From assembly GCA_029265995.1 (NCBI GenBank), contig JAJUFM010000022.1, positions 1-32,504 of the forward strand: DNA of 32,504 nt, read 5' to 3'. Within the stretch, counting starts at the first letter, position 1. The number at the start of each line of letters is the position of its first letter. This DNA is from Rhodospirillaceae bacterium (GTDB lineage: Bacteria > Pseudomonadota > Alphaproteobacteria > Kiloniellales > DSM-21159). The notes beneath the pieces were generated by a model. The model worked only from the letters and a program-made list of their open reading frames with translations. It ran no database searches and was not told the DNA's origin. This document shows positions 7,678 through 11,198 of the stretch, piece by piece. The position numbers and the translations under genes were made by a program.

Positions 7678-7843
7678 GGAGTGAAAGAGTAGCTTTCTTG
7701 CGCAGCGGGTGCCAGCGCCACTTCTACGCGTAACGAACGCTTCAGCCATGCTTTTCGTGGCCGCCGTCGCAGCTTGTGCAGGCACCGATTGCGCGGCCGC
7801 TGGCAGCGGTTATGCTGACCCGAGCAGCTACTTGAGGTGAGTG

Positions 7844-8680
7844 ATGACATCCTGGACTTTCGTTGATGGGCAATGGCTGGAGGGCAATCCCGGACTCGTG
7901 GGGCCGATGAGCCACGCGCTTTGGCTGGGATCTTGTGTGTTCGACGGGGCGCGAGCCTTTGAGGGCGTGGCCCCCGATCTGGATCTGCACTGCCAGCGGA
8001 TCAACAACTCTGCCCGCGCCATGGGCCTCAAGGCTTTGCACGAAGCGGGGGAGATCCTGGAGTTTTGCCAGGATGGTCTAGCGAAGTTTCCCAAGGATGC
8101 CGCTGTTTACATCCGCCCGATGTATTGGGCCGAGGGCGGTTTTGTCGACAATGATCCCGAAACGACGCGCTTTAGCCTGAGCATCTATGACTCGCCCCTG
8201 CCTGAGCCCGGGAGTTCGGCTCTTACCCTGTCACCCTTCAGGCGGCCAACTATCGAAACTGCCCCAACCAACGCAAAAGCGGCGTGCCTCTACCCCAACA
8301 GCGGGCGGGCCCTGCGGGAAGCGCGTAGTCGCGGCTTTGACAATGCGGCGATGTTGGATTCCGCAGGCAACGTTGCTGAATTGACAACCGCCAACATCTG
8401 GCTGGGTAAGGACGGTGTGGCTCATACGCCGGTGCCCAACGGCAGCTTCCTGAACGGCGTGACCCGCCAGCGGGTGATCAAGCTGCTGCGTGAGGCTGGC
8501 ATCCAGGTGCATGAGCGGACTCTCACCTGGCAGGATTTTCTGGAGGCGGACGAGATCTTCCAGACCGGAAACTATGGAAAGGTTCTGCCCTTTACCCGAA
8601 TCGAAAACCGTGAATTGCAACCTGGCCCCCTCTACAAGCGGGCGCGCGAACTCTACTGGAACTGGGCGCACGGCGGCTGA
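7844..8680 (+). CDS. Class IV aminotransferase, branched-chain type
   Basis: 278 residues from ATG 7844, which has GAGG at 7834-7837; a GTG immediately before (7841) is the alternative. This is a pyridoxal-phosphate enzyme of fold type IV, the group of branched-chain aminotransferases, D-amino acid aminotransferases and aminodeoxychorismate lyase. The lysine in NAKAACLYPNS (about K145) is the expected Schiff-base residue. A conserved AELTTANIW segment with a glutamate at about 179 follows, then the GVTR phosphate-binding loop. It is slightly shorter than E. coli IlvE. Its stop overlaps the start of the dapF-like gene (TGATG), so the two are probably translated together. Branched-chain versus D-amino acid specificity is not settled by sequence. 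Confidence 0.85.
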   Translation: MTSWTFVDGQWLEGNPGLVGPMSHALWLGSCVFDGARAFEGVAPDLDLHCQRINNSARAMGLKALHEAGEILEFCQDGLAKFPKDAAVYIRPMYWAEGGFVDNDPETTRFSLSIYDSPLPEPGSSALTLSPFRRPTIETAPTNAKAACLYPNSGRALREARSRGFDNAAMLDSAGNVAELTTANIWLGKDGVAHTPVPNGSFLNGVTRQRVIKLLREAGIQVHERTLTWQDFLEADEIFQTGNYGKVLPFTRIENRELQPGPLYKRARELYWNWAHGG

Positions 8681-9531
8681 TGAGCACCAACAGGGTACTT
8701 CCCTTCCGCAAGATGCACGGTCTGGGGAACGATTTTGTCATCTTTGATACCCGACACATCCCTCTCGAGCTGACTGCCGAGCAGCTTGCGCGGGTGGCCG
8801 ATCGCCATTTCGGCGTCGGATGCGACCAGGTCGTCATCCTGCTCCCACCCCCTGAAGGGGCGGACGTCGGCGTTCGCTTCTACAATGCTGATGGCAGCCG
8901 GGCCGAGGCCTGTGGAAATGCCACTCGCTGCGTTGCGCGGCTGCTCTTTGAGGAGACGGGCAAGGAGGCGGTCGTTATCCGCTCGCTGGTTGGGGAACTC
9001 CACGCGCGGCAGATGGGAGAGGGGCTGATCACGGTGGATATGGGCACGCCACAGCTGGAATGGCAGGCGATCCCGCTAGCGCGAGAGATGGATACGCTGG
9101 CCCTCGACTACAAGATCGACGAGCTCCCTAAGCCGGTCGCGGTATCCATGGGCAATCCCCACGTCGTCTTCTTTGTGGAAGATGTGGAGGCGGTGGACCT
9201 CTACGCTTTGGGACCCAGGATCGAGCACGATCCCCTATTCCCGGAGCGTTGCAACGTGCAGTTCGTGCAAAGGCTGCCTGACGGCTCGCTGAAGCACCGC
9301 ATCTGGGAGCGGGGTGCCGGCGCCACCCACGCCAGCGGGTCGAGCGCCTGCGCCGTCATCGTGGCCGCTGTGCGGCGCGGCATCATCGACGGACGCTCTG
9401 CTTTGCTGCGTCAGCCCGGCGGGTTACTGAGGATGGAGTGGCGGGAAAGCGACGGCCACGTGCAGATGACAGGCCCCGCGACGGATGTCTTCACGGGGGA
9501 GCTGAACGCCGAGGTGCTGGGGGTGGCATGA
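8680..9531 (+). CDS. dapF: Diaminopimelate epimerase-like protein lacking the second catalytic cysteine
   Basis: 283 residues, full length for DapF, which interconverts LL- and meso-diaminopimelate for lysine and peptidoglycan synthesis. The first half-site is intact: N70-A-D and C78 in ACGNATRC. SMGNPHVV and NVQFV are also typical. In the second half-site the usual sequence is GAGET-x-ACG; here it reads GAGATHASG, so the conserved Glu is Ala215 and the catalytic Cys is Ser219 (codon AGC at 9334-9336). A cysteine does occur five residues later (C224), at a site also often Cys in normal enzymes. The gene is fused by a one-base overlap to the aminotransferase. Either a variant DapF or a different isomerase; the symbol marks family only. 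Confidence 0.82.
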   Translation: MSTNRVLPFRKMHGLGNDFVIFDTRHIPLELTAEQLARVADRHFGVGCDQVVILLPPPEGADVGVRFYNADGSRAEACGNATRCVARLLFEETGKEAVVIRSLVGELHARQMGEGLITVDMGTPQLEWQAIPLAREMDTLALDYKIDELPKPVAVSMGNPHVVFFVEDVEAVDLYALGPRIEHDPLFPERCNVQFVQRLPDGSLKHRIWERGAGATHASGSSACAVIVAAVRRGIIDGRSALLRQPGGLLRMEWRESDGHVQMTGPATDVFTGELNAEVLGVA

Positions 9532-9576: not shown

Positions 9577-10581
9577 CTAAACCGCGATGGCTTGTACGGC
9601 TTCTGCCGGCAGGTCGTCGCCGAAGCTGCGCTGGTAATACTCCGCCACGATCGGGCGCTCGACCTCGTCGCACTTGTTGAGGAAGGTGACGCGGAAGGCG
9701 AAGCCGATGTCGCCGAAAATCTGGGCATTTTCGGCCCAGGTGATCACCGTACGGGGGCTCATCACTGTTGAGATGTCGCCGTTGATGAAGCCGGCGCGCG
9801 TGAGATCGGCCACGGCGACCATCGCCCGGATCGTCTTGCGTCCTTGCTCGGAGTCATAGCCCGGAAGCTTCGAAAGGACGATGGACTCCTCCTCCTCGTG
9901 CGGGAGGTAATTCAGGGTCGCCACGATATTCCAGCGATCCATCTGGCCCTGGTTGATCTGCTGGGTCCCGTGATAGAGCCCGGTAGTGTCGCCCAGCCCA
10001 ATGGTGTTCGCTGTCGCGAAGAGGCGGAAGGCAGGGTGCGGGCGGATCACCTTGTTCTGGTCGAGCAGTGTCAGCTTGCCCTGGACCTCCAGCACGCGCT
10101 GGATGACGAACATCACGTCCGCGCGACCGGCATCGTACTCATCGAATACCAGGGCAACCGGGTGCTGCAGCGCCCACGGAAGTAGTCCTTCCCGAAACTC
10201 TGTTACCTGCTTGCCATCCTTCAACACGATCGCGTCCTTGCCGATCAGGTCGATACGGCTGACGTGGCTATCAAGGTTGATGCGGATGCAAGGCCAGTTA
10301 AGGCGCGCTGCGACCTGCTCAATGTGGGTGGACTTGCCCGTCCCGTGATAGCCCTGGATCATCACGCGGCGGTTGTGCGCAAAGCCGGCCAGTATGGCGA
10401 GCGTGGTGTCACGGTCGAAGCGATAGGAGTCGTCCAGGTCCGGCACGTACTCGCAACGTTCGGAAAAGGCCGGCACCGTCATGTCGACATCAATGCCAAA
10501 GGTCTTGCGCACAGAGACTGTGGTATCGGGCATTCCGGTGGGCATTCCACCGGTCTGCTGCATTTCTTGAGCCATGGACAA
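9577..10581 (-). CDS. cobS: Cobaltochelatase subunit CobS (AAA+ ATPase)
   Basis: 334 residues, the usual CobS length. With CobT it forms the AAA+ motor that drives CobN in inserting cobalt into hydrogenobyrinic acid diamide during aerobic cobalamin synthesis. Walker A is GYHGTGKST at 77-85, Walker B LVFDEYD at about 144-150, and sensor residues lie in the FATANT segment. Start choice is open: TTG 10581 sits six bases after GAGGA, while ATG 10575 is two codons in. It is preceded by a J-domain gene, a common alphaproteobacterial arrangement. cobT, normally the next gene, is absent; the dapF-like gene converges 45 bases downstream. Confidence 0.94.
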
Positions 10582-10628
10582 CTCGAATCCTCGCTTGCGT
10601 ATCCTGGGATTAGATAATGCGGTCGCCG

Positions 10629-11198
10629 TTACGCGTGAAGCGCTTTAAGCGTGGCGTAGGCTTGCGTCACGCGCTTGAGACGCTCCTCAGCCTGCTTATC
10701 ACCGCCGGTGGCATCTGGATGTAGCCGCTTTACCAGTTCACGGTAACGGCGGCGAATCTCAGTGAAGTCAGTGTGTAACTCCAAGCCGAGAACGTTTAGC
10801 GCTTTCTCTTCCTCGCTGCGAGCGCCGTGTCGTTGCCGCCGCTGCTCATTAGCTCTCTGGTGTCGGCGCGCCCGCTCAAAGCCCGCAAACTCCCACGCTT
10901 GGCGTTCTGCTTCGTGGAGCTTGGCACCCGGACCGCTGCCCAGGCGCCACGTGGGCCTGTCCCAGAAATGGGCGCGCCTCCGGTCGGCTTCAATCTCGCT
11001 CTCGCTCATGTCGCGATGGTAGTTCCAGCTGGCATTGTAGGCACGCACGTGCTCCAGACAGAACCACAGATAGTCGCGCATCCGTCCGGGCTCGGCCGGC
11101 GCCTTGAAGCGGCCTGGTTCACTGCAGCCCTCGTGCATGCAGCAGGGGAAGGAAGCCTCCTCCTTGCCTGCTTTGGAGAAGAAATCGGTGCGCGACAT
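10629..11198 (-). CDS. J-domain protein encoded next to cobS
   Basis: 189 residues. A C-terminal J domain (about residues 133-189) carries the HPD motif at 160-162, which stimulates Hsp70 ATPase. The N-terminal 60 residues hold C19, C20, C25 and C47 with nearby histidines (MHEGC, CLEH), a possible metal site. The middle (about 95-130) is rich in Arg and charged residues, likely helical. There is no Gly/Phe or classical DnaJ zinc-finger region, so this is not DnaJ itself. The gene lies 47 bases upstream of cobS on the same strand, a linkage seen in many alphaproteobacteria. A role as specialised cochaperone is inferred; the client is unknown. Confidence 0.85.

Follow-up and report, generated by a model that had tools for sequence, protein, structure and literature searches.

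The window (the whole stretch of DNA that was analysed, 32,504 nucleotides) carries a dapF gene lying between a gene for a class IV aminotransferase and a convergent cobS gene (Table 1). The stop codon TGA of the aminotransferase gene (8678-8680) and the start codon ATG of dapF (8680) overlap by one base, and the two genes are probably co-transcribed as one operon. On the other side of dapF, cobS and then a gene with a DnaJ domain are found on the minus strand (window positions 9577-11198), convergent to dapF. An earlier note on this DNA had remarked that dapF is not placed beside mtaB. This holds for the window, where the convergent cobS is found downstream instead; an mtaB-like gene (Radical_SAM and UPF0004) lies downstream of dapF in the family relatives L006 and L011. 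The aminotransferase gene adjoins dapF in the relatives G001, G003 and G008, and in G005, G006 and G010 no such gene was seen within 1.5 kb flanks of dapF. The operon partner was dropped as a clue to function, since it is not conserved beside dapF genes of this type.

Table 1. Coordinates of dapF, its diagnostic codons and the adjoining genes in the window
Feature	Position	Strand	Basis
Class IV branched-chain-type aminotransferase gene	7841..8680	+	NF009896, 437.8 bits
dapF, 283 aa, predicted Cys78/Ser219 diaminopimelate epimerase	8680..9531	+	TIGR00652, AlphaFold2 model, fold match
Cys78 codon TGT, first catalytic residue, motif EACGN	8911..8913	+	just before helix 79-93
Asn192, counterpart of the DAP-binding Asn190 of Haemophilus DapF	9253..9255	+	alignment and literature residue list
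Gln194 codon CAG, coupled to Ser219	9259..9261	+	146-row column scan
Glu210-Arg211, counterparts of the DAP-binding Glu208 and Arg209 of Haemophilus DapF	9307..9312	+	alignment and literature residue list
Ser219 codon AGC, position of the second catalytic Cys, motif IWERGAGATHASGSSACA	9334..9336	+	just before helix 220-232
Ser222 codon AGC, i+3 from Ser219	9343..9345	+	146-row alignment
cobS, convergent, downstream of dapF	9577..10581	-	TIGR01650, 611.9 bits

A DapF protein with serine at the second catalytic site

The product of the open reading frame scored 246.9 bits against TIGR00652, the NCBIfam profile of DapF, for which the equivalog cut-off is 114.65 bits. In its AlphaFold2 model (pLDDT 94.1) Cys78 and Ser219 are each placed at the start of a helix (79-93 and 220-232), and the best Foldseek match of the model was 9mro, the diaminopimelate (DAP) epimerase of Anabaena (43% identity, E 1.4e-36). 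The protein does not fall into the proline racemase family: its nearest folds are DapF enzymes at 26-43% identity, and proline racemases appear among the Foldseek matches from rank 38 downward at about 16% identity. The alignment of solved DapF enzymes reads ACGTGACA at the second site, and the earlier note was borne out in that Cys78 is present (TGT) and the second catalytic cysteine is replaced by Ser219 (AGC). Profile score, first cysteine, DAP contacts and fold are all those of a DapF, and the second catalytic cysteine is absent. The protein is classed here as a variant DapF, the function of which we infer from these features.

The residues which contact DAP in Haemophilus DapF are Asn64, Asn157, Asn190, Glu208, Arg209, Gln44, Gly74, Asn75 and Gly218, and the catalytic Glu is Glu208 (PMC8225329). 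Every one of these contacts is present in the window protein (positions 69, 159, 192, 210, 211, 50, 79, 80 and 220), the Haemophilus numbering being transferred through the offset and the alignments of other solved DapF enzymes rather than through a direct Haemophilus alignment. The DAP-recognition residues were intact in all 44 serine-type rows of a 146-row alignment, which comprises 44 rows with Ser and 102 with Cys at 219, includes the G204 gene twice (L129 and L185, both Cys) and omits the Ser/Ser form L120 and the second copies L183 and L184. The earlier note read Ala215 as standing in place of the usual Glu. This was mistaken: the counterpart of Haemophilus Glu208 is Glu210 of the WERG motif, which is retained. 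At position 215, the x of GxT, Glu occurs in 2 and Ala in 4 of the 146 aligned alphaproteobacterial rows, and Arabidopsis DapF has Ala at the equivalent position in the alignment. Going by these alignments Ala215 is no lesion, the catalytic Glu being retained.

A base-calling error, another source that had been considered for Ser219, was ruled out. AGC is also the codon in the independent same-genus genome G001 (79% identity) and in five further genomes from three other genera of the family.

Copy number, pathway context and selection

A Pfam search of the genome that contains the window returned a single PF01678 gene, the window dapF, as two half-domain matches. The second dapF with both cysteines, for which the earlier note had suggested a search, was not found in this 3.17 Mb genome (96.8% complete), though a draft of 208 contigs could have let a further copy be overlooked. 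The same-genus genome G001 (100% complete) likewise has a single dapF, and 15 genomes with a serine-type enzyme that were searched have one DapF gene (two half-domain matches) apiece. DapF was found in 54 of the 58 genomes of the relatives search.

DapF output feeds the cell wall in addition to lysine. Profile searches of the window's own genome detected DapD and LysA, and no DAP dehydrogenase (Ddh) above the cut-off. Among 21 genomes tested, 18 of which carry a serine-type DapF, DapD was present in 19 and LysA in 20, and Ddh did not pass the cut-off in any (0/21), a single weak sub-threshold match being seen in G210. A bypass of DapF through DAP dehydrogenase was rejected on this count. Since DapD and LysA are present and Ddh is absent, L,L-DAP must be epimerised to supply lysine and the cell wall. 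Comparison of the window dapF with that of a sister species gave dN 0.174 and dS 1.57, and the resulting dN/dS of about 0.11 indicates that the gene is under purifying selection.

Distribution and number of origins of Ser219

Within the family of the window organism (f1), four genera (g1, g3, g5, g6) contributed 7 genomes with Ser219, encoded by AGC without exception, and two genera (g2, g4) contributed 4 genomes with Cys; a further member, G009 (88% complete), gave no DapF match. A set of 80 loci from the genome collection contained 24 with Ser and 56 with Cys at 219, and all 24 came from organisms of the Rhodobacterales type, for example Ruegeria, Sulfitobacter, Loktanella and Paracoccus. 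An even sample of the class (385 genomes, the denominator being all sampled genomes and not those bearing DapF) gave Ser by the strict motif in 9 genomes with TCN and 5 with AGY codons, or 13 once the off-target G204 is removed. The serine form was also counted in family f30, which is taken as Rhodobacteraceae because its members group with named Rhodobacteraceae. DapF was found in 74 of its 80 genomes, and 53 of these 74 have Ser219 (50 TCN and 3 AGC) and 21 have Cys; the TCN pattern gave 52 matches, 2 of which (G460 and G496) lie outside dapF by coordinates and were not counted, and the AGC-serine and cysteine groups were read directly. Both the TCN and the AGY class of serine codons are one step from TGC or TGT. 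The impression that such ASG variants might be a clade feature was correct, as Ser219 recurs in f1, f30 and other lineages.

Two of the 53 f30 serine genomes (G444 and G506) show four half-domain matches, which corresponds to an additional DapF-like gene. The main DapF of G444 is serine-type and its second copy (L183, on G444:C47) is a distant Cys-type protein with both cysteines, ERPG for ERG and about 36% identity to the window protein. Another observation concerns family f91, in which L114 and L115 (G254 and G140) are divergent Cys/Ser DapF proteins that do not have Cys224; G140 also gave no LysA match.

In trees the window DapF groups with ordinary alphaproteobacterial DapF. A 42-row tree, built without columns 194, 219 and 222-224, requires at least 4 changes at 219. 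Forcing all serine rows into one clade lowered the likelihood by 73 units and was rejected (p-AU 0.002), and a constraint that joins the own-family Ser and Cys rows gave a likelihood 7.5 units above that of the free search. The fewest changes at 219 in other row sets were 6 (122 rows), 4 (63 rows) and 2 (81 rows, column 194 kept). In the 63-row set, with column 194 kept, a clade uniting own-family and Rhodobacterales serine rows was not rejected (p 0.27). The number of changes at 219 is thus uncertain, and a single origin of Ser219 is unlikely.

Residues that accompany Ser219

A scan of the columns of the 146-row alignment showed that, besides 219 itself, only position 194 differs strongly and alike in the own family and in Rhodobacterales. 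Gln194 is present in 40 of 44 serine rows against none of 102 cysteine rows, in which the residue is Glu (51), Gly (37), Ser (8), Asn (5) or Pro (1). By lineage, Gln194 was found in 7/7 serine rows of f1, 2/2 of f168 and f23, 2/2 of f124, 2/2 of f91 and 27/31 of Rhodobacterales; it should be noted that serine rows are akin to one another, and 40 of 44 does not stand for 44 independent events. The four exceptions belong to one Paracoccus-type clade (L091, L097, L098 and L112) with Glu194 and Cys222. These four read ASGSC around Ser219, and their thiol has possibly moved by one helical turn.

Position 222 also varies with the catalytic residue. It is Ser or Cys in 35 and Gly in 9 of the 44 serine rows; the 102 cysteine rows invariably have Gly or Ala. 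The backbone amide of Gly227 in Anabaena DapF is close enough to the second catalytic sulphur for a hydrogen bond (PMC12039745), and this glycine, three residues past the catalytic Cys, corresponds to window position 222. Ser222 sits at i+3 of Ser219, the pairing of 219 with 222 being a statistical one from alignment columns. Position 194 lies two residues past the DAP-binding Asn192 on the same strand of the AlphaFold2 model. From the geometry of this strand, the side chain of Gln194 would face the same way as Asn192 and contact Ser219.

In 398 Pseudomonadota genomes, a pattern that requires Gln194 and permits either Cys or Ser at 219 gave 14 matches. Ser219 was present in every one of them, and 11 came from genomes new to the analysis. 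Four of the 11 (G848, G638, G562 and G566) are from outside the window's class, probably from gammaproteobacteria, and both of their catalytic sites read Ser; the four genomes each possess in addition a canonical Cys/Cys DapF, in which residue 194 is Gly. As the Ser/Ser copy has Gln194 and the Cys/Cys copy Gly194, the link between Gln194 and Ser219 holds between paralogues of one genome. What the present analysis adds to the earlier note is that the Cys-to-Ser swap recurs and that it is tied to Gln194. That nearly every serine form shows one and the same additional change suggests another way of running the DapF reaction.

Discussion

Our data indicates that the window dapF probably codes for the cell's working DapF, a naturally occurring variant whose catalytic pair (Cys78/Ser219) is asymmetric, and we put the probability of this at about two in three. 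Cys78 would act as the base on L,L-DAP. In solved DapF enzymes L,L-aziDAP alkylates the cysteine of the N-domain and D,L-aziDAP that of the C-domain. Because the cysteine alkylated by L,L-aziDAP is the equivalent of Cys78, it would be this residue, kept in the window protein, that attacks L,L-DAP as the base. With Cys78 as base, Ser219 would be needed only as the acid in the L,L to meso direction. The hydroxyl of Ser219 could donate a proton to the carbanion from the opposite face, and Gln194 together with Ser or Cys at 222 may position and tune this hydroxyl. For a hydroxyl it is easier to give a proton to a carbanion than to abstract one, so the serine form would be biased towards meso-DAP. 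An enzyme of this type is expected to be faster from L,L to meso than in reverse.

Canonical DapF (Haemophilus influenzae, E. coli, Anabaena, Arabidopsis; TIGR00652) shares with the window protein the fold, Cys78, the Glu and Arg of WERG, the DAP-contact residues and the placing of both catalytic residues at helix starts. The window protein differs in having Ser for the second catalytic Cys, Gln194 in place of Glu, Gly, Ser or Asn, and Ser222 in place of Gly or Ala. The laboratory-made C217S form of Haemophilus DapF (PDB 2q9j) carries the same change at the second site, but does not have the Gln194 and Ser222 partners. EcL-DER, an enzyme of the glutamate-racemase type, does not have the DapF fold. 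It is an aspartate/glutamate racemase with a Cys/Thr pair that isomerises in one direction and so offers a model for the bias proposed here; as in the window protein a hydroxyl replaces one catalytic thiol, with the difference that it belongs to Thr and not to Ser (PMC8142540). A Ser/Cys pair epimerises 4-hydroxyproline in the proline racemase superfamily, in which the serine is proposed to be held by an i+3 residue. This 4-hydroxyproline 2-epimerase (B9JQV3) resembles the window protein in its related two-domain fold, the change of one catalytic Cys to Ser and the i+3 partner; unlike the window protein it has Ser at the first site, Asn as the partner and hydroxyproline as the substrate, and its activity has been shown (PMC4113996).

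It had been expected that a Cys-to-Ser change would cripple the enzyme, and for laboratory mutants of relatives this is true. Cys-to-Ser mutants of the diaminobutyrate racemase PddB kept less than 0.1% activity, and similarly faint activity is cited for Mt-DapF (PMC8225329). In a histidine racemase the corresponding mutants were greatly reduced in activity. To our knowledge none of these crippled mutants carries the partner residues. No paper describing or assaying a natural serine-type DapF was found in the literature search. The dapF of Rhodobacterales is not named in the available portions of three papers on gene essentiality and amino acid synthesis (PMC5513736, PMC5764234, PMC7311316), and chlamydial DapF retains both cysteines (PMC5885031). 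Phaeobacter inhibens needs no amino acid supplement (PMC5764234) and R. sphaeroides grows in amino-acid-free medium (PMC5513736); growth of the two fits a working enzyme in the family, the comparison being at family level and setting aside the dapF type of these species.

Other explanations have to be weighed against a working Cys78/Ser219 pair. Cys78 could be the sole acid/base, with a water or group held by Ser219 and Gln194 protonating the other face. The co-occurrence of Gln194 and Ser219 agrees with such a relay, and waters are held in the closed site of Anabaena and plant DapF. We still consider it unlikely, as water is nearly excluded on closure of DapF, Gln50 of the window protein corresponds to the Haemophilus DapF residue that occupies the water space, and the structures published in eLife show a catalytic Ser itself at work (PMC4113996). 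The thiol could instead have moved to Cys224 generally, or to Cys222 in the Paracoccus-type clade, leaving Ser219 a bystander. The four rows with Cys222 do have Glu194 and not Gln, as if Cys222 substituted for Gln194, and the backbone amide that touches the catalytic sulphur of Anabaena DapF belongs to this i+3 position. The window protein has Ser at 222, which together with the distribution of Cys224 makes a moved thiol rather improbable here; Cys224 as a general replacement was rejected, since Cys-type DapF has it just as often (101 of 102 rows) and the serine rows L114 and L115 do not have it.

A paralogue with another isomerase role, as proposed in the earlier note, would have shifted to a different substrate, for example as another amino acid racemase. 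DapF-like folds do comprise histidine, O-ureidoserine and diaminobutyrate racemases, and the aminotransferase gene overlaps dapF. Several findings speak against this proposal, and we regard it as very improbable: the window dapF is the sole PF01678 gene of a genome with DapD and LysA and without Ddh, it scores far over the equivalog cut-off and groups with DapF, a constraint to the Cys-type enzymes of its own family gives a higher likelihood than the free search, the aminotransferase neighbour does not go consistently with the serine form, and all DAP contacts are kept, several of which are lost in PddB (PMC8225329). That the gene codes for a weak or decaying enzyme, tolerated through a low flux need, could be argued from the lowered activity of the published Cys-to-Ser mutants. 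It is scarcely credible for a gene with a dN/dS of about 0.11 and a residue that spans whole genera (53 of 74 DapF-bearing f30 genomes) and is accompanied by a partner, the more so as DapF serves the cell wall in addition to lysine.

DapF, a textbook example of thiol/thiolate catalysis, has been thought to need two cysteines. It is also a long-standing antibacterial target, and covalent inhibitors attack both cysteines. A natural and recurrent one-serine form suggests that DapF can dispense with the second thiol in some sequence backgrounds, and Gln194 is a residue that may make the Cys-to-Ser swap possible. How a weak base takes an alpha-proton is an old question, which three swappable positions now make approachable. 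Inhibitors directed at the cysteines of DapF may bind serine-type enzymes differently.

DapF forms with serine at both catalytic sites

In the alphaproteobacterial genome G269 (1.3 Mb, rated 100% complete) a Ser/Ser DapF is the sole DapF. Its gene is part of a cluster in the order dapB-dapA-dapF-aminotransferase, divergent from lysC and lysA (G269:C3, L217:7338-10975). The aminotransferase of this cluster has its best matches to LL-diaminopimelate aminotransferase models, below their strict cut-offs, and DapD and Ddh were not found in G269 by profile search. If the cluster works, epimerisation of DAP would be possible without any catalytic thiol. The one-way argument does not cover Ser/Ser forms, which have no Cys base. 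As a tentative proposal, possible rather than probable, Cys/Ser enzymes with the linked Gln194 (or Cys222) could be one-way DAP epimerases in much of Rhodobacterales and several other alphaproteobacterial lineages, with the Ser/Ser form doing the same job thiol-free in the lysine cluster of G269, which would amount to a repeated departure from two-cysteine chemistry.

The Ser/Ser DapF-like paralogues with Gln194 in G848, G638, G562 and G566 (L196-L199, L211-L214) are adjoined by transporter genes. These are of the urea-transporter and dicarboxylate-symporter families in G638 and of the major-facilitator type in G848.
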